64,000 bases of DNA, from positions 1 to 64,000 of the forward strand of contig JAIQEX010000019.1 of the NCBI GenBank assembly GCA_020073615.1, in the 5' to 3' direction. This DNA comes from Terriglobia bacterium. GTDB taxonomy: Bacteria > Acidobacteriota > Terriglobia > Bryobacterales > Bryobacteraceae. The notes under the pieces were generated by a model. That model made no database searches and was not told the DNA's origin. It saw nothing but the letters and a program-made list of their open reading frames with translations. Below, piece by piece: positions 3,877 to 52,350 of this stretch; position 1 is the stretch's first letter; each line of letters starts with the position of its first letter. Made by a program: the position numbers and the translations under genes.

Positions 3877-4358
3877 ATGGCAGCGAGGCGTTTCGATATT
3901 AGCGACAAGCTGATCCACTTACAGAGGCTCCGATGGAAGCGTTCGTCGATGCTTTTGTCCGGCACTTCCCGTTCAAAAGGTACTCCCAATTTGGATTGAT
4001 GTTCAATAAGCCTTGGGTCTTTGACCATGGCGGTAGACCTGTAATTTATCAACCCAACAGCGATTTCGGCCTTCTGCCAGAAGAACTGCGTTGGCGCCAC
4101 GTAACCTATGAGCTAACTGGGACGCCAGTCATCGACTGGACTTGGGAGCGCGAGTGGCGGATGCGCTGCGATGAATTGCCGTTCTCGCCGGCTGATGTGT
4201 CAATTATTGTTCCGAACAAGGAATGGGCGTCTACCTTGCGCCGAAGCCACGATGCCGAACAGGACATGGTCGTCGAACTGTACGCCACCGCGAGCGAACG
4301 GGAGATTGCGGAACTGCGGCGTGAGCCTTTTCGCTGGCATATGGCACCGCTTCAATGA
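3877..4358 (+). pseudogene. unknown conserved gene with internal deletion
   Basis: A plausible start at 3877 gives MAARRFDISDKLIH. The frame then changes near 3917 to TEAPMEAFVDAFVRHFPF and continues uninterrupted to the stop at 4358, with WRHVTYELTGTPVIDWTWE and REWRMRCDELPFSPADVSI. The second part is a coherent, well-composed soluble protein. The first part reads like the start of the same protein with several dozen residues missing at the join. I do not recognise a function. GC content is lower than in the neighbours. No ribosome site supports the internal ATG at 3933, so the 141-residue downstream frame is probably not independently expressed. Confidence 0.55.
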
Positions 4359-4479
4359 CTTTCTGAGACTGCGCCGCCGGCCTGCTTGGCGGGATGGTGC
4401 GGCCGAACCCGCGGGCGCGTATCCCGCTGTCGTAGTCTAATCGAATGATGCTTTCGCGACCCATTCCACCATCCGCGGC

Positions 4480-39906: not shown

Positions 39907-41148
39907 CTACGCCAGCGCCTGTTCGAAATCGGCCAGCAGGTCGCGCCAGTCCTCGATGCCCACGGAGATGCGCACCAGCCCGTCTGTGATGCCGGATTCG
40001 GCGAGTTCCTGCGCGCTCGTGCCCGAGTGGATGGTGCTCTTGGGGTGGCACGTCAGGGTCTCGACGCCGCCCAGCGACACGGCGTTCTTGGCGATGCGTA
40101 TGCGCCGCAGAAAATCGAACGCCGCCGCCTTGCCGCCATGGAAATCGATGGAGAAGATCCCGCCCGGATACGCGCACTGCTTCTCGAAGATGCGCTTCTG
40201 CTCGGGATCGTCGAATAGCGTCGGATAGATGACGCGGCTCAGCTTCTTGTGGCCGTCGAGCGCTTCGGCCAGGCGCTGTGCGTTCTTGCTCTGGCGGTTC
40301 ATGCGCAGCGCCACGGTGGGCAGGCGGCCGTCCAGCATCCAGCACTCGTCGGGCTGGAGGATGTTGCCGAACATGTTGCGCCGGCTGCGGATCTTCTGGA
40401 TCATCTCGGAGCTTTTCGTGATCGCCACCCCGGCCAGCATGTCGCTGAACCCGGACAGGTACTTGGTGGCGGAGTACAGCACCAGGTGCGCGCCCAGCAG
40501 GAGCGGGTGCTGGAACGTGGGCCCGAGGAACGTGTTGTCCACCATCACCACCGGCTTGTCGGGGTGCTTCGCGGCGCTCTCGGCGACGCGCTCGATGTCG
40601 GTCATGATCAGCGTCGGGTTGGCGGGCGTCTCCAGAAGCACGATGCAGCAGTTCCTGGCCGACCGTATGGCCTCGTCGATGGCCGCCGCATCGCCCGACC
40701 GCACGGGAATGCCGTGTACCCCGAACGGCTCGAGAAACTTGTGGATCAGCCCCGTGGTGCCGCCGTACAGCGGAGTCGTGTACACGATGGTGCTGTCCGG
40801 CCGCGCGAATGTAAAGCATGCGGTCATCACCGCCGCCATCCCGGAATTGAAGACCGCCGCCTCGCGCGCCCCGGCTTCGAGCGGCACGATCTGGTCCTCC
40901 AGAATTTCGGAGTTCGGGTGGGAAAACCGCGAGTAGATGAGATCGGCGCGTTCCCCGTTGGCCGGTTTGATCTTCCCCATGGTGATGGCAAACGCGTGCT
41001 CGGCCGCCTCCGGGGTGGCAAACACATAGGTCGAGCTGCGAAAGACGGCCGGACGCGCCGACCCGAAAGACAAGCTCGGGTCGAACCCCCGGCTCAACAC
41101 CGCGGTCCGCGGCCGTACATCGTCATGAGCGTTTTCGTGATCCGCCAT
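39907..41148 (-). CDS. cystathionine gamma-synthase / methionine gamma-lyase family PLP enzyme
   Basis: This 413-residue Cys/Met-metabolism PLP enzyme carries the cofactor Lys in VLYSATKYLSGFSDMLAGV. Further marks are YSRFSHPNSEILEDQIVPLE, FNSGMAAVMTACF, TTPLYGGTTGLI and HPKSTIHSG near the C-terminus. Gamma-synthase, gamma-lyase and O-acetylhomoserine sulfhydrylase activities cannot be separated by eye. GGAG six bases upstream supports the start. Confidence 0.9.
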   Translation of the reverse strand: MADHENAHDDVRPRTAVLSRGFDPSLSFGSARPAVFRSSTYVFATPEAAEHAFAITMGKIKPANGERADLIYSRFSHPNSEILEDQIVPLEAGAREAAVFNSGMAAVMTACFTFARPDSTIVYTTPLYGGTTGLIHKFLEPFGVHGIPVRSGDAAAIDEAIRSARNCCIVLLETPANPTLIMTDIERVAESAAKHPDKPVVMVDNTFLGPTFQHPLLLGAHLVLYSATKYLSGFSDMLAGVAITKSSEMIQKIRSRRNMFGNILQPDECWMLDGRLPTVALRMNRQSKNAQRLAEALDGHKKLSRVIYPTLFDDPEQKRIFEKQCAYPGGIFSIDFHGGKAAAFDFLRRIRIAKNAVSLGGVETLTCHPKSTIHSGTSAQELAESGITDGLVRISVGIEDWRDLLADFEQALA

Positions 41149-42104: not shown

Positions 42105-42171
42105 TGTCCCGCGAGCCGCCCGCCGATAAACATCGTAGAGCTCGGAATTGGAAGCGGCAACAAGGAGAACT

Positions 42172-42630
42172 ATGACGTTTACGACGGCCCACTTTGGCCC
42201 CATCGCGGTAGACGAGACATCGATCATCGAATTCCCGGAGGGGCTGCCTGGGTTTGAAGACCGCCGGCGCTTTGTGGCGCTCCAGCAGCCCGCCCACCAG
42301 GGCTTGGTGTTTCTCCAAAGCCTGGAGATCGCCGCCCTCTGTTTCCTGGCGCTGCCGGTGCTATCCGTGCGCCCGGACTATCGGCTCGCCATGACGCCGG
42401 AAGACCTGAAGCTGTTGGGCTTTCCCGAGGACCACAGCCCCGAAATCGGCAGCGAGGTGGTGGCGCTGGCGATCCTCTCCCTGACGGAAGGCGAAGAGCC
42501 CACCGTCAACCTGCTGTCACCCGTGGTGATTCACACGCAAACGCGGCGCGCCGTCCAGGCCATCCGCCCCGACGACCGTTACGGCTGCCGCGAAGCGCCG
42601 CTCCGGGAAGAAGTGGCTGTATGCTCGTGA
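42172..42630 (+). CDS. fliW: flagellar assembly factor FliW
   Basis: This 152-residue protein has FGPIAVDETSIIEFPEGLPG and FEDRRRFVAL at the N-terminus, and VALAILSLTEGEEPTVNLL and SPVVIHTQTRRAVQ later, all typical of FliW. FliW binds flagellin and CsrA and relieves CsrA repression of flagellin translation. AAGGAGAACT before ATG 42172 fixes the start. It overlaps csrA by 10 bp, the usual gene pair, although no flagellar genes lie in this window. Confidence 0.93.
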   Translation: MTFTTAHFGPIAVDETSIIEFPEGLPGFEDRRRFVALQQPAHQGLVFLQSLEIAALCFLALPVLSVRPDYRLAMTPEDLKLLGFPEDHSPEIGSEVVALAILSLTEGEEPTVNLLSPVVIHTQTRRAVQAIRPDDRYGCREAPLREEVAVCS

Positions 42631-43774: not shown

Positions 43775-44584
43775 ATGGCGCGCAGCGGGACGAAACAGCC
43801 ACTGACCAGAATCAGCGGGCAGACCATCATCGACGAGTTGATCCGCAACATGGAGGTGGGACGGCTCGAGCTGGGATACAGCATCCTGCTGCCGTGCATC
43901 TTCAGCGTCTATTTGCATCCCGACGATTATGGGCGGCTGGCGGCGGTGCAGGACATCATGAAGGAAGACGCCAAACGGGCATTGACGGCACGGGTGGCGG
44001 AATGGAATGCCGCCAAAGGCCCGCGCTTCGGGCGGGGCGCCGCGCCCAAAACGTATCGAACCGCACAAAACGACTGGTCGATCCAACTGTTCGCCGACAC
44101 GGAGAATGCCGTGCCCGCGGGCGACGTGGAGATTCACTCCGAATTGAACGACGTGGCGCGGCCGGGGTATCGCGGCGCCAAAACAACGCTGATCGAGCGT
44201 GAGCCGGCGGTGACCGCGGCCCGGGTGGCGCGCGACCGCGAGAGCACGCGGCGGCAGCCCGACCGGATTTTCGCCGAGATCCGCTACCAGGACGACTCCG
44301 GACCGCAGACCTACTTCGTGACCCAGAACGAAATCAGCATCGGCCGCGGGGGCGAGGACCTGTGGGTGGATTTGCCGCTGTACACCAACGACGAGGTGTC
44401 GCGCGAGCATGTGGGGCTGCGGCGCGACGCGGCGAGCGGGGCCTTCGCCATCGTCGACAAGAGCCGCAACGGCACGTGGCTGAACGGGCGGCGCCTGGCG
44501 CGCGGGGTGGAGGAGCCGATGCCCGACCGCGCGGAAATCGGCGTGGCGGAAGTGCTGAAGCTGTCCTTCGAGGCCCGGAAGTGA
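43775..44584 (+). CDS. FhaA-like FHA-domain protein 1
   Basis: This 269-residue protein has an N-terminal domain (about residues 15-125) resembling the DUF3662/FhaA N-domain (ILLPCIFSVYLHPDDYGRLA, VPAGDVEIHSELN) and a C-terminal FHA phosphothreonine-binding domain. FHA marks are ISIGRGGEDLWV, EVSREHVGLRR and DKSRNGTWLNGRRL, with the binding Arg, Ser and Asn present. It should recruit proteins phosphorylated by the kinase encoded three genes downstream. It overlaps the next small gene by 4 bp. Confidence 0.88.
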   Translation: MARSGTKQPLTRISGQTIIDELIRNMEVGRLELGYSILLPCIFSVYLHPDDYGRLAAVQDIMKEDAKRALTARVAEWNAAKGPRFGRGAAPKTYRTAQNDWSIQLFADTENAVPAGDVEIHSELNDVARPGYRGAKTTLIEREPAVTAARVARDRESTRRQPDRIFAEIRYQDDSGPQTYFVTQNEISIGRGGEDLWVDLPLYTNDEVSREHVGLRRDAASGAFAIVDKSRNGTWLNGRRLARGVEEPMPDRAEIGVAEVLKLSFEARK

Positions 44585-44676
44585 AAGAACTCTACCAGCT
44601 CCACACGCCGTTTGCGATCGCGTTTCTGGCGTTCGTGGCGCTCTTTGTGGCCATGCATTGGAAGGAGCGCCGGTGA
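44581..44676 (+). CDS. 31-residue single-helix membrane peptide
   Basis: A GTG at 44581 overlaps the FHA gene stop, and the TGA at 44674-44676 overlaps the GTG of the phosphatase gene, both in the GTGA arrangement. The product (KELYQLHTPFAIAFLAFVA, then LFVAMHWKERR) has one membrane helix of about 18 residues and a basic tail. Coupling on both sides and a plausible helix argue for a real gene. Function is unknown; a scaffold or regulator for the membrane-bound kinase/phosphatase is a guess. Confidence 0.7.
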   Translation: MKELYQLHTPFAIAFLAFVALFVAMHWKERR

Positions 44677-45563
44677 AGTCGGGAGCCGTCACCGACGCGG
44701 GCCTGGTGCGCGCGCACAACGAAGACCGGTATTGGGTGGACGACCAGCGGGGCGTTTACCTGGTGGTGGATGGCGTGGGGGGGCGTGCCGGCGGCGACCT
44801 GGCGGCCGAGACCGCCGTGGAGACTATCCGCGAATCGGTCTGCGCCGGCGAGGGGCCCGTGGAGGAGCGCGTGCGCCGCGCCATCATGCTGGCCAACAAC
44901 CGCATTTTCGAGCTGGCGCAGGCGGACCAGGAGCGCCGGGGCATGGCCTGCGTGCTGACCCTGGCGGTAGTGGAGGACGGCTACGCCACCATCGGGCACG
45001 TGGGCGATTCGCGCCTGTACCTGATCTGGAACGGCGCCATGCGCAAGGTGACCTCCGATCACTCGCCGGTGGGCGAGCAGGAGGACGCTGGCGAGCTGAG
45101 CGAGGAAGAGGCCATGGCCCATCCGCGCCGCCACGAGGTATTTCGCGACGTGGGATCGCGGCTGCGCGAGGCGGCAGACGAGGAGTTCATCGAGATCCGC
45201 CGGTGCCGCTTCCGGCCCGATGCGGCCCTGCTGCTGTGCAGCGACGGGCTCACCGACCAGATCACCTCGGCCGAGGTGCGCGACGCGGTGGCGCGCTACG
45301 ACGGCGACGCGGCGGCCGTGGCTGGAGAATTGGTGGAGCGTGCCATCGAGGCCGGCGGACGGGATAACATCACGGCAGTGCTGGTGGCCGGGCCGCAGTT
45401 CCGAGGGCATGGCGAGCGAACGCGGCGGCGGCCGGCTGCAACGCGGGTGCGCCTGCCGCGGCCGCGGATGCTGACCGGGCGCATAGCCTTTCTGGGGTAT
45501 GGGCTGCTGCTGGGCATGCTGCTGTGGGCCGTCCTGCGGGCGGCGAGAGGATCGATGCCATGA
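44673..45563 (+). CDS. PP2C-family Ser/Thr protein phosphatase, membrane-anchored
   Basis: This 296-residue PPM phosphatase has the metal-binding motifs LVRAHNEDRYWVDD, VVDGVGGRAGGD, GHVGDSRLYL, LLLCSDGLTDQ and GGRDNITAVL in the standard order. A C-terminal membrane helix (IAFLGYGLLLGMLLWAVL) anchors it, like mycobacterial PstP but without the large extracellular part. GGAAGGAG five bases before GTG 44673 fixes the start. It should reverse phosphorylation by the adjacent kinase, whose ATG overlaps its stop. Confidence 0.92.
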   Translation: MKSGAVTDAGLVRAHNEDRYWVDDQRGVYLVVDGVGGRAGGDLAAETAVETIRESVCAGEGPVEERVRRAIMLANNRIFELAQADQERRGMACVLTLAVVEDGYATIGHVGDSRLYLIWNGAMRKVTSDHSPVGEQEDAGELSEEEAMAHPRRHEVFRDVGSRLREAADEEFIEIRRCRFRPDAALLLCSDGLTDQITSAEVRDAVARYDGDAAAVAGELVERAIEAGGRDNITAVLVAGPQFRGHGERTRRRPAATRVRLPRPRMLTGRIAFLGYGLLLGMLLWAVLRAARGSMP

Positions 45564-47272
45564 CCGCGCCGGCGCGCATCGGCCGTTACGAAATCGTCCG
45601 CCGCATCGGCCGCAGCATGACCGACGTCTATCTGGCCATAGACACGGTGGAGAACCGCCAGGCGGCGCTCAAGCTGATTCCGCGGAGTGACGACCCGGTT
45701 ACGAAGCTGGTGCTCGAAGCGGAACGGCGCGGCGCACGCATCCAGCAGAAGCTGCGGCTGCTGGATCCGCGCATGGTGGAGATTTACGAATTCGGGGATC
45801 TGGACGGCTACTTTTTCGTGGCCATGCAGTATGTGGAAGGGCGCAACCTGGCCGAGGTACTGGCCGCCGAGCGCGCCATCGACGCCACACGCGCGGCCGC
45901 GATTGCGCTCGAGATCTGCGAACAACTGGCGAAGTTTCACGCGCAGGAATCGGCGGTGGTGCACGGCGATATCAAGCCTTCCAACATCCATCTGGGGCGC
46001 AACGATACGGTGCGCCTGTTGGACTTCGGCATCGCCAAGACGCTGCGCGCGGATTCGAACGCCACCATCCACAATTTCGGGAGCCCGAGCTACTGCTCGC
46101 CGGAGCGGCTGGCGCGCTCGGAGGTGGATGAGCAGTCGGACCTGTGGGCCGTGGGCGCCACGCTGTACGAGATGCTGGCGGGGGCGCCGCCGTACCAGGC
46201 GGACAGCACGCGCAAGCTGGAGAGCCTGATTCGTTCGAAGCGGCCGCCGCGCGCGTTGCACGGAAGCTGCCCGCGCGCCTTGCGGGCGGTGACCATGAAG
46301 GCGCTGGCGCCCAATCCCGGAGGGCGATACCGGTCGGCGGGCGAATTTCAGGCCGATTTGCAGGCGTTTTTGGAGCGCAAGCCGACGCTGGCCGAAATGG
46401 AGCGGCGCGCGGGGTGGAGCGCCAACGCCACCATCGAAGCGGCGCGCGACTGCCTGGTGCGAGCCACGCGCACGCTGGCGCGGGCCAAGCGGCGGCTGCA
46501 GATCGCGGGCGGGCTGGCGTGGTTTGCCATGGGCATGACGCTGTGGATCGGCGGGACCTTCGGGTGGCAGGCGCTCCAGGCGCGCCGTGTGCCGCCGCCC
46601 CCGGCGCTGCCTGCGCCTCCCGTTGCTTCGCTGCCGCGCGTCCCTACCTTGAATGAAGAACTGCCGCTGATGTACGTCGCGGCGGCTGAGCGCATCTTTG
46701 AATCCTACCGCGCCAGCGCGGACGCCTCGCTGCACGATTTCGACTGGCAGAAGGCCGAGATTTGCCTGGAGCGCGCGGTGGAGCTGGGCCGCGGCGACGA
46801 CCGGACGCTGGGATCGCTCGCCCTCGCCCGCGGTTACGCCACGCTGGAGCGCCTCGCCGGCGCCCATTATTCCGAAGCGGCGGCGGTGCAGTTGCGGTAC
46901 TACGCGCGAGACCAGTTTGCCATGGCCGCGGCGAAGATGCCGCAAAACGCCGAGCCGCACCTGGCGCTGGCGCGCGTGTATGTTTACTCGCTGGCGGATG
47001 TGGACCAGGCGATGGAGGAGTTCGCGGCGGCCGAGCGGCTGGGGACCGCGCCGGGACGCCGCGAAATCGAACAACAGGCGGATGCCTACCGCATGCGCGC
47101 CGAGAAGGAAGCGCCGGCGGCCCCGCGGCGCGCGTGGCAGGATGCGCAAACGGCGCGCGGTCTGTATCAGAGGATCGCCGGCTTCGGCCAGGTGGATCAA
47201 CACCTGCGCGAGTTGGAGACGGCGGCGCGGCGCTGGATGGGGCACGGCGCACGAGGCCGCACATGGCGGTAA
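45560..47272 (+). CDS. Ser/Thr protein kinase with membrane helix and TPR-like tail
   Basis: This 570-residue protein has a Hanks-type kinase domain (about residues 8-270): ATP Lys in AALKLIPRS, catalytic loop VVHGDIKPSNIHLG, DFG in RLLDFGIAKTL and SPSYCSPERLARSEVDEQSD. The catalytic loop has HGD instead of HRD, so it is not an RD kinase. A membrane helix (LAWFAMGMTLWIGGTFGW, about 318-335) is followed by a Pro linker and a helical TPR-like region (about 370-570), presumably extracytoplasmic. It overlaps PP2C by 4 bp and the fused polymerase gene by 10 bp. Confidence 0.92.
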   Translation: MTAPARIGRYEIVRRIGRSMTDVYLAIDTVENRQAALKLIPRSDDPVTKLVLEAERRGARIQQKLRLLDPRMVEIYEFGDLDGYFFVAMQYVEGRNLAEVLAAERAIDATRAAAIALEICEQLAKFHAQESAVVHGDIKPSNIHLGRNDTVRLLDFGIAKTLRADSNATIHNFGSPSYCSPERLARSEVDEQSDLWAVGATLYEMLAGAPPYQADSTRKLESLIRSKRPPRALHGSCPRALRAVTMKALAPNPGGRYRSAGEFQADLQAFLERKPTLAEMERRAGWSANATIEAARDCLVRATRTLARAKRRLQIAGGLAWFAMGMTLWIGGTFGWQALQARRVPPPPALPAPPVASLPRVPTLNEELPLMYVAAAERIFESYRASADASLHDFDWQKAEICLERAVELGRGDDRTLGSLALARGYATLERLAGAHYSEAAAVQLRYYARDQFAMAAAKMPQNAEPHLALARVYVYSLADVDQAMEEFAAAERLGTAPGRREIEQQADAYRMRAEKEAPAAPRRAWQDAQTARGLYQRIAGFGQVDQHLRELETAARRWMGHGARGRTWR

Positions 47273-50200
47273 CCAGAAGCTGGACCGCGCCCGGCGCCAC
47301 GCCGGTGGCGGTGGCCATCGCGCGGCCGGCCGTGCCGCGCAGAGAGTGGGTGTGGCTTTTAGGGGCCTCGCTTTTCGTGGCGGCCGGGTTGGCCATGGTC
47401 TATGCGGCCAAGAGCCCGGGCTTCGCCGCGGTGGAGCAGCGGCTGGCGCGCGGCGAGCTGGTCAACCTCAATACCGTGGCGGGGCCGGAGGAGCTGCTGC
47501 CGCTGCTGGAATCGTTTCCCAGCCGCGCGGAGCGCGAACTGGTGGCGCAGTCCGCTTTCGATTTCCTCGCCCGCTCCCGGCCGCTCGCCAACGACGGCGC
47601 GTTGTCGAGGCTGCGGGTTTCAGCGGACGAAATCGCCAGCGACACGCGGTGGGATGTGCTCCGCCGGCGGCTGCGCGAGCAGCCGGCGAGCCCGCGCCGC
47701 CGCCTGCAACTGCTCCCCCTGGCGCGGCTGAAGCCGCTGATGGTGGTGCGCGCGCCGCGCGCATTCCGCCGCGAGTTTCTGCTCTGGACGGGACTCTACT
47801 TCGCGGGCTTTTGGCTGGTGGCGCTGGTTTGGACGCGGGCGCGCTTTCGCGGCGACGGCGCCTTTCTGCCCGCGCTGCACCTGCTCACCGGCATCGGCCT
47901 GGTGCTGATGGTGAGTCTGCGCGACCCGCTGCGCGACACCCTCGAGTTCCACAAGTTTGCCCTCGGCGTTTTCCTGGGGTGTCTGCTCCTCGCGTTGCCC
48001 GCGCTGAAGGCGTTCGATTACCGGAAGCTTTCCGACTGGTGCTACACGCCGCTGTTCGCCGCGCTGGGCCTGTTCGCGGCGCTCCTGGCGTTCGGCAAGG
48101 GACCGGCCGGCAACGACGCGAAAGTGAACCTCGGGCCCTTCCAGCCGGTGGAGCTCATCAAGATCCTGTTGGTGCTGTTTCTGGCCGGGTACTTCACGCG
48201 CAACTGGGAGCGGCTGCGCGATCTGCGCGAAAAACGCGTTCTGCCGCGATTGTTCCGGCGCATCGGCCTCGCGCGGCTGGAGCACGTCGTCCCGGTTCTG
48301 TGCGCGGTGGGGGTGGCGGTGGTCCTGTTCTTCGTCCTGAAGGATCTGGGCCCGGCCCTGGTAACTTTCTTCGTGTTTCTGGCGATGTTCGGCGTGGCCC
48401 GGGGGCGCCCCGGTCTGGCGCTGGCGGGCCTGGCCCTGATGGTGGGGTCGGTGGCCGTGGGCTATCGCCTGGGCCAGCCGCATACCGTGGTGGAGCGCAT
48501 CGACATGTGGCTGGCGCCGTGGGACAACGACGTGCACGGCGGCGACCAACTGGCGCACGGGCTGTGGGCCTTCTCCACCGGCGGCCCGTGGGGCTCGGGC
48601 CCGGGCTGGGGCGACCCGGAAATGATTCCGGCGGGCAGCACGGACCTGGTCCTGCCGGCTATCGGCGAAGAGTGGGGCTTCGTGGGTGTGGCGGCGGTGT
48701 TTCTGCTGTTCGGCTTTCTGGTCTCGCGCGCGCTGCGGGCGGCGGCGCGCGCGGCGACCCATTTCGGGTTCTTCCTGGCGCTGGGGCTGGCCAGCCTGGT
48801 GGCGTTCGAGGCGATGCTGATCACGGCGGGCGTGCTCGGCGCACTGCCGCTTTCGGGCGTAGTGTCGCCGTTCCTCAGCTCGGGCAATACGGCCATGCTG
48901 GCCAACTTCCTGGTGTTCGCGCTGGTGCTCTCGATTTCGGCGGACGGAGCGACGAAAAGCACCGCCCTGCTCCGCAACCCCACGCGCTACCTGAAAGCCG
49001 CCCTGGCGTGCGGCGGAATCGTGCTCCTGGCCATGGCCGCGCGCTACCAGGTGGTGAAAGACGCCGACTACCTGGCGCGCGACGCGCACGCGTTCGAAGA
49101 AGACGGCGTGAAGCGGCCGCAGCACAATCCGCGCATGAACTCCATCGCGCGCGAAATTCCGCGCGGCAGCATCTACGACCGCAACGGGATTCCTCTGGCC
49201 ACCGGTAGTTGGGAGGAGATGGAGCGCCACCGGGCCGACTACTCCGCGCTGGGCGTTGCGCTCGACCAGGCGTGTTCGCGTTTCGACAGCCGGCACTATC
49301 CGTTCGGGGCGGCCACCGCGCACATGGTGGGCGACCTGCGCACGGGCGAGAATTTCCACGCCAGCAATGCGTCGCTGGTGGAGCACGATTCCAACCCGAA
49401 GCTGCAGGGATACCAGTATGCGGAGCTGGCGCCGCTGGTGCGCTACCGGCATCAACCGGGCAACCAGGGGATCGCGCGGGTGCTGGCGCGCGACCGCAAT
49501 GTGCGGTTGACCCTGGACATCCGGCTGCAACTGCGCGCCAAGGAAATCCTGGAGCGGCACTTGCGGCAAACCGGCAGCCAGAAGGGCGCGGTGGTGGTGC
49601 TGGACGCGGCTACGGGCGATGTGCTGGCGATGGTGAGCGCGCCCGCGCCCGACCCGCCCGGCATCCGTGCAGCCGCACCCGCGCCGGACGACTTGCTGGA
49701 CCGCGCGCGTTACGGGCAGTATCCGCCGGGCTCGACCTTCAAGCTGGTGACGGCCATGGCCGCGCTCGACGCCAACCCCGCGCTCAAGCATCGCACCTAC
49801 CTGTGCCGCACGCTGCCCGGCGGCCGCGCGGGCAACACCATCGCCGGCTGGAACCGCGCCATCAAGGACGATATCGGCGACCGCGCGCACGGCACGCTCG
49901 ATATGGGTCGCGCCATCGCGGTCTCGTGCAACGCCTACTTTGCCCAGTTGGGCGTGCACGACGTGGGGGCGAAAGCCCTTGCCGGGATGGCCGCGCGGCT
50001 GGGGATTTCGACCGGCGAGCTGACGGAACTGCGCCGCGCCATGCCGTTTGCGGCGTATGGCCAGGGGCCGGTGCTGATCTCGCCGTTCCAGATGGCGCGC
50101 GTGGCGGCGACCATTGCCGCGGGCGGACGCATGCCGCAGGGCCGCTGGCTGGCCGATGACAGCAACCCGCGCACCGCGGGTGCGGTGGAGGCGCTACCCG

Positions 50201-50493
50201 CCGAGCAGGCCGCATTTCTGGCCGCGGCCATGCGGCGCGTGGTCACCGAAGGAACGGCGCGGCGCGTGATGGCGGGATCGGAAATCAGCTTTGCCGGGAA
50301 GACGGGCACGGCGCAGCTCGACCAGGGCTTGCCGCACTCCTGGTTTACGGGCTTCGCTCCCTACGGCGGAGACGCGCCGCGGCGCCTGGCCTTCGCGGCG
50401 CTGGTGGAGCACGGCGGATATGGCGCGCGGGCGGCGGCGCCCATCGCGCGGGAAGTGATGGAGGCGGCGCGCGAACTGGGGCTGCTGCCGTGA
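47263..50493 (+). CDS. fused FtsW/RodA glycosyltransferase - penicillin-binding transpeptidase
   Basis: A single 1076-residue frame joins two normally separate enzymes. About residues 25-585 are a SEDS polymerase: FQPVELIKILLVLFLAGYF, KDLGPALVTFFVFLAMFG and MIPAGSTDLVLPAIGEEWGF. About residues 600-1076 are a class B PBP: the N-terminal RGSIYDRNGIPLATG, then PPGSTFKLV (S824-x-x-K827), VSCNAYF (S888-C-N890) and AGKTGTAQL (K1013-T-G). All three transpeptidase motifs are intact. An extra soluble segment (about 50-150) follows the first helix. The PBP pedestal is short. It should polymerise and cross-link peptidoglycan in one molecule under control of the upstream kinase. Confidence 0.92.
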   Translation: MAVTRSWTAPGATPVAVAIARPAVPRREWVWLLGASLFVAAGLAMVYAAKSPGFAAVEQRLARGELVNLNTVAGPEELLPLLESFPSRAERELVAQSAFDFLARSRPLANDGALSRLRVSADEIASDTRWDVLRRRLREQPASPRRRLQLLPLARLKPLMVVRAPRAFRREFLLWTGLYFAGFWLVALVWTRARFRGDGAFLPALHLLTGIGLVLMVSLRDPLRDTLEFHKFALGVFLGCLLLALPALKAFDYRKLSDWCYTPLFAALGLFAALLAFGKGPAGNDAKVNLGPFQPVELIKILLVLFLAGYFTRNWERLRDLREKRVLPRLFRRIGLARLEHVVPVLCAVGVAVVLFFVLKDLGPALVTFFVFLAMFGVARGRPGLALAGLALMVGSVAVGYRLGQPHTVVERIDMWLAPWDNDVHGGDQLAHGLWAFSTGGPWGSGPGWGDPEMIPAGSTDLVLPAIGEEWGFVGVAAVFLLFGFLVSRALRAAARAATHFGFFLALGLASLVAFEAMLITAGVLGALPLSGVVSPFLSSGNTAMLANFLVFALVLSISADGATKSTALLRNPTRYLKAALACGGIVLLAMAARYQVVKDADYLARDAHAFEEDGVKRPQHNPRMNSIAREIPRGSIYDRNGIPLATGSWEEMERHRADYSALGVALDQACSRFDSRHYPFGAATAHMVGDLRTGENFHASNASLVEHDSNPKLQGYQYAELAPLVRYRHQPGNQGIARVLARDRNVRLTLDIRLQLRAKEILERHLRQTGSQKGAVVVLDAATGDVLAMVSAPAPDPPGIRAAAPAPDDLLDRARYGQYPPGSTFKLVTAMAALDANPALKHRTYLCRTLPGGRAGNTIAGWNRAIKDDIGDRAHGTLDMGRAIAVSCNAYFAQLGVHDVGAKALAGMAARLGISTGELTELRRAMPFAAYGQGPVLISPFQMARVAATIAAGGRMPQGRWLADDSNPRTAGAVEALPAEQAAFLAAAMRRVVTEGTARRVMAGSEISFAGKTGTAQLDQGLPHSWFTGFAPYGGDAPRRLAFAALVEHGGYGARAAAPIAREVMEAARELGLLP

Positions 50494-50503
50494 GGAGGTG
50501 ACG

Positions 50504-51304
50504 ATGAACCTTACCGAGTATCTGGAAAAGTGGGGCAGGACGCTGTTCGAGGCGCCGCTGGCCACCGCGCCCAAGCCCGAGGAGCCGCCCGAGCTCGCCG
50601 AAATCCGGCTGGCGGTGCTGGACCAGGTGCGCGAAAAAAGCTACCGCTCGGGCGGCAAGAAGGTTTTCCCCTACGACCTGGTGCGCGTGGAGTTGCGCGG
50701 CGTGGAGGAGAGCCGCCACAGCGTCTTCGCGGGCCGGTTTTTTCGCAAGTATCTCGAACAGGAGGTCGCGGGCGCGCTGCGCGACGCGGGCTGCCGGTTT
50801 CCCGAGGACCTGCGCGTGGAGGTTCGGGCGGCCATCGGGTTGCCGCAGCGCGGCGTCGAGTGGCTGGTGGTGGAGGTGGCTTCGCGGGAGAGCGTGGAGG
50901 GGGCCGCCCGGCCGGTGGCGAAGCTGGTGGTGCGCGAGGGCACGGCCAATGTGCCGGCCATCCCGCTGGAGAAGCCGCGGACCAACATCGGCCGCGTGGT
51001 GGATGTCTATCGCGACAAAGGACTGTTCCGCCGCAACGACCTGGCCTTTGCGGAGGACACCGCCATCAATCGCTCGGTATCGCGCGAGCACGCGCACATC
51101 ATGTTCGACAAGGCGGCGGGCGAATATCGCCTGTTCAACGACCGCTGGTATCCCCTGGAGAGGCCGGGCGTGGAGGAGTGCGGCACGTGGATCGTGCGCG
51201 ACGGCATGAGCCAGGAGGTGCACCGCAACGCCCGCGGCGCGAAGCTCGAGCCGGGCGACGAAATCCACTTCGGGCAGGCGGTGGTGGTGTTCGAGATGGA
51301 GTAG
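50504..51304 (+). CDS. FhaA-like FHA-domain protein 2
   Basis: This 266-residue protein repeats the layout of the first FHA protein. The N-terminal domain (about 40-130) resembles DUF3662 (KKVFPYDLVRVELRGVEESR, FFRKYLEQEVAGALRDAG), and the C-terminal FHA domain has TNIGRVVDVY and AINRSVSREHAHIMFD. The NG-T-NG loop of canonical FHA domains is altered, and inserts lengthen the first strands. AGGAGGTG three bases before ATG 50504 decides the start. It closes the operon 10 bp behind the fused polymerase. Confidence 0.85.
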   Translation: MNLTEYLEKWGRTLFEAPLATAPKPEEPPELAEIRLAVLDQVREKSYRSGGKKVFPYDLVRVELRGVEESRHSVFAGRFFRKYLEQEVAGALRDAGCRFPEDLRVEVRAAIGLPQRGVEWLVVEVASRESVEGAARPVAKLVVREGTANVPAIPLEKPRTNIGRVVDVYRDKGLFRRNDLAFAEDTAINRSVSREHAHIMFDKAAGEYRLFNDRWYPLERPGVEECGTWIVRDGMSQEVHRNARGAKLEPGDEIHFGQAVVVFEME

Positions 51305-51333
51305 GTGGGCAGGGACCGGTAACATGGAAGGCG

Positions 51334-52350
51334 ATGTTCGATTGGAAGCAGGAGCCGCACCGGCGCTACAACCCGCTCACGCGCAAATGGGTGCTGGTGT
51401 CTCCGCAGCGCACGGCGCGGCCCTGGCAGGGACAGATTGAACCAGACGACGCGGCCCGAGCGGCGGAGTACGATCCGGAGTGTTACCTCTGCCCGGGCAA
51501 CGCACGCGCGGGCGGCGTCAGCAATCCAAATTACACCGCGACCTTCGTTTTCGACAACGACTTTGCAACGCTTCAGGCGGGGACCGCGCTCGATCGCTTC
51601 GAACAGGATGGATTGCTGATCGCGGAGACCGAGCCCGGCATCTGCCGCGTGGTCTGTTTCTCGCCGCGGCACGACCTGACCATCGCCGGCATGGAACTCG
51701 CAGACCTGCGGCGGGTGGTCGACACGTGGGTGGAGCAGTGGGGCGAACTGGGGCGGCATCCTGTCATCAATTACGTGCAGATCTTCGAAAACCGCGGCGC
51801 CATGATGGGGGCCAGCAACCCGCATCCGCACTGCCAGATCTGGGCGGGCCACTCGCTGCCCAATGAAGTCGCCCTCGAGCAGGCGTCGCAGAAGGCCTGG
51901 CGCGAAGAGCGCGGCCGGTGCCTGCTGTGCGAGTACGCGAAGCTGGAGCGGGCGGCGGGAAGCCGTGTGGTGGAACAGAACGAGAGCTTTCTGACGGTGG
52001 TTCCGTTCTGGGCCGTCTGGCCATTTGAGACGCTGGTGATTGCGCGGCGGCACATGGCGGCGATCGACGGATTGACCTCCGCGGAGCGCGACGGGCTGGC
52101 GGACATTTTGAAGCGCACGGCCGCGCGCTACGACCGGCTGTTCCAGGTTTCCTTCCCGTACTCGTTCGGTTTTCACCAGCGGCCGAGCGATGGCGAAGGG
52201 CACGACGAGTGGCACCTGCACGCGCATTTCTACCCGCCCCTGTTGCGCTCGGCCAAGGTCCGCAAATTTCTGGTGGGCTACGAGATGCTGGCGACTCCGC
52301 AGCGCGACCTCACACCCGAAGCGGCAGCCGAGCGGCTGCGGGGGGTGTGA
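51334..52350 (+). CDS. galT: galactose-1-phosphate uridylyltransferase
   Basis: This 338-residue Leloir-pathway enzyme exchanges UMP between UDP-glucose and galactose-1-phosphate. It has zinc-ligand CYLCPGN, the FENRGAMMGASNPHPHCQIW active-site block with the HPH-x-Q nucleophilic histidine, and GEGHDEWHLHAHFYPPLLR near the C-terminus. The length is typical. No other gal genes are adjacent, and it is separate from the upstream operon by its own 30-bp gap. Confidence 0.95.
   Translation: MFDWKQEPHRRYNPLTRKWVLVSPQRTARPWQGQIEPDDAARAAEYDPECYLCPGNARAGGVSNPNYTATFVFDNDFATLQAGTALDRFEQDGLLIAETEPGICRVVCFSPRHDLTIAGMELADLRRVVDTWVEQWGELGRHPVINYVQIFENRGAMMGASNPHPHCQIWAGHSLPNEVALEQASQKAWREERGRCLLCEYAKLERAAGSRVVEQNESFLTVVPFWAVWPFETLVIARRHMAAIDGLTSAERDGLADILKRTAARYDRLFQVSFPYSFGFHQRPSDGEGHDEWHLHAHFYPPLLRSAKVRKFLVGYEMLATPQRDLTPEAAAERLRGV

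Follow-up and report, generated by a model that had tools for sequence, protein, structure and literature searches.

A conserved single-helix membrane microprotein gene in an FHA/PP2C/kinase/SEDS-PBP operon of Acidobacteriota

The window, i.e., the whole 64,000-nucleotide stretch of DNA analysed here, belongs to a genome of 6.96 Mb in 252 contigs and carries five contiguous genes on one strand, encoding an FHA-domain protein, a tiny membrane protein, a PP2C-type phosphatase, a Ser/Thr protein kinase and a SEDS glycosyltransferase joined to a class B PBP (SEDS-bPBP), in this order (Table 1). Among the named genomes of the collection its closest relative is a MAG of the Bryobacteraceae (L027), whose FHA protein is 94% identical, which makes an acidobacterium of that family the most likely source. 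The gene order is the same in relatives as far as their contigs reach, except that the PP2C gene is missing in two loci (L030 and L042). The second gene of the series is real and old; it encodes a microprotein of no known family and is set in an operon of a known kind.

Table 1. The five-gene operon and its flanking genes in the window.
Feature	Coordinates	Strand	Basis
Cys/Met-metabolism PLP enzyme, on the strand opposite to the operon	39907-41148	-	
FliW-family frame	42148-42630	+	
FHA-domain protein, FhaA-like (N-terminal FhaA_N-like region and C-terminal FHA), 269 aa	43775-44584	+	Pfam, structure model
Tiny gene: single-pass membrane microprotein, 31 codons, GTG start	44581-44676	+	Homologues, selection, adjacency, helix model
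PP2C-type Ser/Thr phosphatase with C-terminal membrane helix, 296 aa	44673-45563	+	Pfam PP2C_2 E 1.3e-15; hydrophobic stretch in translation
Ser/Thr protein kinase, one hydrophobic (membrane) stretch	45560-47272	+	Pfam Pkinase E 1e-36; translation
SEDS glycosyltransferase and class B PBP transpeptidase, single 1076-aa frame	47263-50493	+	Pfam
Galactose-1-phosphate uridylyltransferase domains, downstream of the operon	50530-52350	+	

The FHA protein matches Pfam FHA (E 4.8e-9) and, below the 25-bit cut-off, FhaA_N (E 0.0059, 17.5 bits), a family matched at E<=0.01 by 13 of 15 of its homologues (best 9.8e-7). Residues 161-269 of its structure model, the part on which the Foldseek/VIA comparison bears, resemble solved FHA domains, including that of FhaA (3oun; Z 14.1, rmsd 1.8, 90 aligned), and a PDB sequence search with the protein gave one weak match. 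The last gene of the operon combines FTSW_RODA_SPOVE (6.4e-48, residues 211-560) with Transpeptidase (2.8e-41, residues 775-1067). SEDS and class B PBP form one open frame in all 61 loci with both matches, and no mention of a natural SEDS-PBP fusion was found in the portions of the literature covered by the search, including those of PMC8262863.

The start codon of the tiny gene, GTG at 44581-44583, overlaps the end of the FHA gene (AAG TGA) by 4 nt as GTGA, and its stop codon, TGA at 44674-44676, overlaps the GTG start of the PP2C gene (44673-44675) in the same way; the positions that a sequence-only reading had assigned to these two overlaps are exact. The PP2C stop and the kinase ATG in turn overlap by 4 nt as ATGA (45560-45563), and the kinase and SEDS-bPBP frames by 10 nt (47263-47272), so that all four joints of the operon overlap (4, 4, 4, and 10 nt) and the overlap at both ends of the tiny gene is a habit of the whole operon, not a peculiarity of this gene. 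Among 54 tiny-bearing loci, the 4-nt start overlap occurs in 37, the end overlap in 28 (32 when CTG starts are allowed) and both together in only 18. The earlier proposal that the double overlap indicates a fixed stoichiometry with the signalling proteins is therefore weak, given also that eight loci have lost the gene and retain PP2C; at most, translational coupling is suggested, and stoichiometry is not readable from DNA.

The translation of the tiny gene, VKELYQLHTPFAIAFLAFVALFVAMHWKERR, consists of one long hydrophobic stretch followed by a K/E/R/R tail. An AlphaFold2 model built with 35 homologues is a single helix from residue 2 to residue 30 (mean pLDDT 87.1), a shape expected of any such sequence; the description as one membrane helix with a charged tail, already made from the letters, agrees with both. 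Conservation in the family is highest for L-Y/F close to the start, for H or R followed by P/A and F at the N-terminal edge of the helix, and for the basic end, with no invariant column in the alignment. Of 54 rows, 51 have more lysine and arginine on the C-terminal than on the N-terminal side of the hydrophobic stretch, 2 have equal numbers and 1 has fewer, a charge pattern which suggests that the tiny protein is oriented with its N-terminus outside and its C-terminus inside.

The frame of the tiny gene stays open for 157 codons in DNA of 65% GC. Since the DNA is GC-rich, an open frame alone is weak evidence, and therefore the case for a gene rests on conservation. The presence count was made on 90 FhaA-type rows, namely 80 loci from named species genomes, 8 strong matches from a phylum-wide set of 396 genomes, the window and L016; of 21 loci from 61 genomes, the 16 with long FHA matches were oriented. 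A frame with a strong hydrophobic stretch lies within about 420 nt past the FHA stop in 55 of the 90 rows, from several Acidobacteriota lineages, and measures 27-36 aa in 52 of them, the longer ones being those of L136 (45), L079 (51), and L139 (52). The carriers include Occallatibacter savannae AB23 (L068), two loci titled Thermoanaerobaculum / Thermoanaerobaculia (L094 and L097) and one titled Acidobacteria gp7 (L095). Among the eight strong matches from other families, six have the tiny gene (L135-L138, L140, and L141), L139 has a displaced core only and L134 has none. Of the 35 tiny-less rows, two end too soon (L038 and L089), one shows no PP2C (L087) and one is a fragment (L105), and in the remaining ones FHA and PP2C adjoin or stand apart with other sequence between them. 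In L029 (6800-7150; G030:C489) and in L139, inserted sequence separates the tiny frame from the FHA gene. Inserted DNA moves the frame to 82 nt past the FHA stop in L031 and to 251 nt past it in L029, and leaves it intact; in L139, whose listed frame begins in inserted sequence, the insertion seems to have split the N-terminus of the gene.

Selection acts at the level of codons. Nine pairs with no shared row, counted without the shared codons at either end, show 41 differences at the first, 25 at the second and 101 at the third codon position in 765 sites (test against equal numbers, p 3e-13). Furthermore, pooled pS is 0.48 and pN 0.16, and pN is lower than pS in 20 of 20 pairs of 70-92% nucleotide identity, which share rows and of which two involve L101, a repeat of L141. 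Judged from these substitution patterns, the tiny gene is under purifying selection. A chance open frame would be a natural suspicion here, where spurious frames are common and this one runs so far; it is refuted by the conservation of frame, length and helix, by the excess of third-position differences, by the low pN in every pair and by the survival of the frame next to inserted DNA, and its probability is close to nil. That the tiny gene is a real coding gene is thus as good as certain. The 31-residue membrane-peptide gene first noticed between the FHA and PP2C genes is in this way borne out, and the relatives in which its conservation was to be sought keep both frame and helix in 55 of the 90 rows, with selection on codons.

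The gene is also specific to its place. A profile made from 35 of the 55 tiny rows was run over 237 whole genomes from the family and matched, at E<=0.01, 57 places, which belong to 56 genomes. Each of the 36 places at E<=1e-5 follows an FhaA-type match on the same strand at a distance of no more than 263 nt, an adjacency partly built in because rows of the profile were drawn from some of the searched genomes; that no strong match occurs away from an FHA gene in the 237 genomes is not built in by the profile. Weaker places adjoin an FHA gene in 5 of 6 cases between 1e-5 and 1e-3 and in 7 of 15 between 1e-3 and 1e-2. The nine of these 21 places that do not adjoin one are probably due to chance, and diverged true copies can escape the profile, so that the number of carriers is blurred by the weak matches. 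An FHA match at E<=0.001 is present in 127 of the 237 genomes, in many of them to the FHA domain only. At confident scores, the tiny gene is found only in operons of the type FhaA-like FHA / tiny / PP2C / kinase / SEDS-bPBP.

Of the 35 members scanned (of 55; E<=0.05), at most two match any one Pfam or NCBIfam family. The two-member matches are Pfam YqzM (best E 0.0026) and NCBIfam pufB (0.001), and the lowest E-values belong to single-member matches (CydS, 0.0015; GPS-CTERM, 0.00037). DUF4405 of Pfam, considered as a possible family, matched one of the 35 members below its cut-off (E 0.019) and was taken as chance. No published small gene in the slot between FHA and PP2C was found in the literature that the search covered, made up of titles, abstract openings and portions of PMC11898655, PMC6554272, PMC3989709, and PMC8262863.

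A search for FhaA-type loci beyond these genomes returned none in viral contigs and one short FHA match in plasmids. Among 21 phylum loci known from their FHA match only (L142-L162), tblastn with the operon proteins found PP2C in 2 and the kinase in 2, and no full operon within the flanks.

The history of the gene can be followed on a quick tree of 85 FHA rows, 54 of them tiny-bearing and 29 tiny-less, which was midpoint-rooted and has low support at its deepest forks. At least 7 changes between presence and absence are required, or 5 when only the starred branches are counted, a number which alone cannot separate gain from loss because of the midpoint root and the weak deep forks. Tiny-bearing rows stand on both sides of deep forks, and L078, beside a clade of tiny-less paralogues, has the gene; the distribution favours an old gene lost several times as the simplest reading. 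Both kinds of operon coexist in the genome of the window, with the tiny gene on contig C168 and without it on C47, where a second FHA-PP2C operon is located (G000:C47:17362-18844; L001 and L023). In the FHA clade of this second operon the tiny gene is absent from 20 of 22 rows and present in L078, and one row is unscored. Within the clade of the window itself, it has disappeared from eight loci (L039-L041, L046, L048, L051, L053, and L063) in which FHA, PP2C, kinase and SEDS-PBP stay. A six-frame hmmsearch for a relocated copy in the 35 tiny-less loci gave a single match under E 1, on the minus strand of L077 (E 0.092, 11.4 bits), whereas positives, most of them rows of the model itself, score 32-58 bits.

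These losses also bear on the partners of the protein. The expression "locked", which had been used for the position of the gene between FHA and PP2C, is too strong: eight loci keep both neighbours and have lost the tiny gene, and the PP2C gene has gone from L030 (6804-7000) and L042 (6067-6290), where the tiny stop overlaps the kinase ATG as ATGA. The phosphatase activity of L030 may come from a paralogous operon, since L102, which its accession assigns to the same assembly, has a PP2C gene in such an operon. As the tiny gene is kept in L030 and L042 without PP2C, the FHA protein, the kinase or SEDS-bPBP are likelier partners. An accessory or anchor of the phosphatase alone could be imagined, in that PP2C immediately follows the tiny gene in most loci with the latter, and the tiny gene is present in all four loci of the clade whose PP2C has no clear C-terminal helix (L032, L043, L044, and L047). 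The corresponding figure for helix-bearing PP2C rows of the clade is 23 of 31, however, which does not differ significantly from four of four (Fisher p 0.55), and a fifth helix-less PP2C, L106 of the paralogue clade, is without the tiny gene; together with the loci that have kept only one of the two genes, this makes such a role unlikely. The pattern of loss and retention fits an accessory function that is of use without being essential and is not restricted to PP2C.

Many relatives have a PP2C protein that runs beyond its membrane helix into a match to Pfam Beta_helix, while that of the window stops at the helix. The match was obtained with Pfam in the two proteins scanned (L068:6966-8510 and L094:6947-8686), the long form accounts, by length alone, for 41 of 66 uncut frames, and the Beta_helix region is presumably outside the cell. 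A tie between loss of the tiny gene and loss of the beta-helix was considered and set aside, with no evident link among the 66 frames (22 with helix and tiny gene, 19 with helix only, 16 short with tiny gene, and 9 short without). Likewise, kinship of the tiny family with the last SEDS helix (about fusion residues 533-566) was not retained: its score with all rows (z 4.05, 0 of 500 shuffles) and with near rows (z 3.44, p 0.004) is not matched with deep rows (1.67, p 0.06), and as one of 42 uncorrected tests (14 segments in three row sets) this inconsistent result may be due to chance.

From a functional point of view, the tiny product would be a bitopic membrane microprotein with its N-terminus outside and its basic C-terminus in the cytoplasm, acting as a membrane-embedded accessory subunit that may hold a soluble phosphothreonine reader, the FHA protein, beside the membrane kinase and the SEDS-bPBP cell-wall synthase. 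Such an adaptor role, in which partner and action are inferred, is given a probability of roughly 0.4 to 0.45. In its favour are, among other points, the recurrence of the gene in the same slot, the selection on it and the fact that no FhaB protein with helix and FHA domain was found in the genome of the window, where none of five FhaB-profile matches at E<=0.01 falls on positions 1-32. Since the gene is absent from eight loci of the clade of the window and from almost every row of the paralogous operon, any role must be dispensable or replaceable. A different explanation is that of a translated spacer, namely a short ORF which links the translation of PP2C to that of FHA, or whose nascent helix draws the polysome to the membrane, the finished peptide having no job. 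The overlapping starts and stops along the operon would suit it, and its membrane-delivery form would require only a hydrophobic helix; yet a pure coupler needs no conserved sequence, while L-Y/F, H/R-x-P/A-F and the basic end are shared and selected, and many rows join FHA and PP2C directly, so that this explanation appears quite improbable.

The adaptor role finds its closest parallel in FhaB (FipA, Rv0019c type), which occupies the same slot between fhaA and PP2C. Five actinobacterial FhaB loci were collected, from replicons filed as plasmids; a search of viral contigs with FhaB as bait found none. In Actinomyces oris (L166), fhaB occupies 4001-4477 and shares 4 nt both with the end of fhaA (4004) and with the start of PP2C (4474), whereas the fhaA and fhaB genes of Tsukamurella show no overlap (3719 and 3815). 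Like the tiny protein, as predicted from its sequence, charge count and model, FhaB has a short N-terminus, a membrane helix and then basic residues; a cytoplasmic FHA domain would require the same N-out/C-in pattern of FhaB. The five FhaB rows measure some 154-162 aa, with an FHA domain after the helix, whereas the tiny protein has 31 aa and no FHA match. Homology was tried by three sequence comparisons, limited by a short helix and five FhaB rows, and none was significant: profile scores against column-shuffled nulls gave p 0.19 (all rows), 0.47 (deep), and 0.14 (near), hhalign a probability of 1.4% (E 0.037), and the five FhaB N-termini rank from the top 0.9% to the top 47% among 445 decoy helices. 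The positional likeness was kept; as far as sequences tell, the tiny protein resembles FhaB in its location, in the length of the helix part and in its distribution of charges. The best profile register, at offset 1 and found also by hhalign, aligns a conserved Arg of FhaB with the R/H of the tiny family.

It can be asked whether the gene is a worn-down FhaB, in which an ancestral protein with helix and FHA domain lost the domain and the leftover anchor still docks the machinery. The identical slot with the same 4-nt overlaps, the common layout of the N-terminal part and the paired Arg would be explained in this way; sequence similarity is not significant, the frames examined in the slot contain no intermediate with helix and FHA domain, and the direction could be the reverse, FhaB having arisen by fusion. 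This origin is possible, though less likely than not. With the adaptor role, the FHA protein and the tiny product would do in two pieces what the one-chain FhaB, helix plus FHA, does in Actinobacteria. More tentatively still, Acidobacteriota may have an ancient split FhaB adaptor, composed of a soluble FhaA-like reader and a separate anchor of about 27-36 residues docking on the kinase and SEDS-bPBP. If the split-adaptor reading is true, the anchor would be, to our knowledge, the smallest subunit described for a cell-wall synthase controlled by a Ser/Thr kinase.

Small bitopic regulators such as CydX, KdpF, and AcrZ, of about 30-50 aa with one helix and operon-borne in some cases, are similar in size and build to the tiny protein, whose gene stands in a different operon and has no consistent sequence match. 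If the proposed role is true, an operon found across several Acidobacteriota lineages has a subunit unnamed in Pfam and NCBIfam, the function of the FhaB helix could be tested directly, apart from the FHA domain, and a handle would be gained on how phosphorylation reaches SEDS-bPBP synthases outside model bacteria. The known system nearest to the operon is the pstP/pknB-type cell-wall and division operon of Actinobacteria, consisting of fhaA, fhaB, pstP, rodA, pbpA, pknA, and pknB (for mycobacteria, PMC11898655 and PMC6554272), which likewise groups genes for FHA, PP2C, Ser/Thr kinase, SEDS and class B PBP. In contrast to the pstP/pknB-type operon, Pfam reports no PASTA domain in the kinase of the window, SEDS is preceded by a single kinase and forms one polypeptide with PBP, and the tiny gene lies in the slot of fhaB, a position of the classical actinobacterial operon that would thereby gain a one-helix counterpart.
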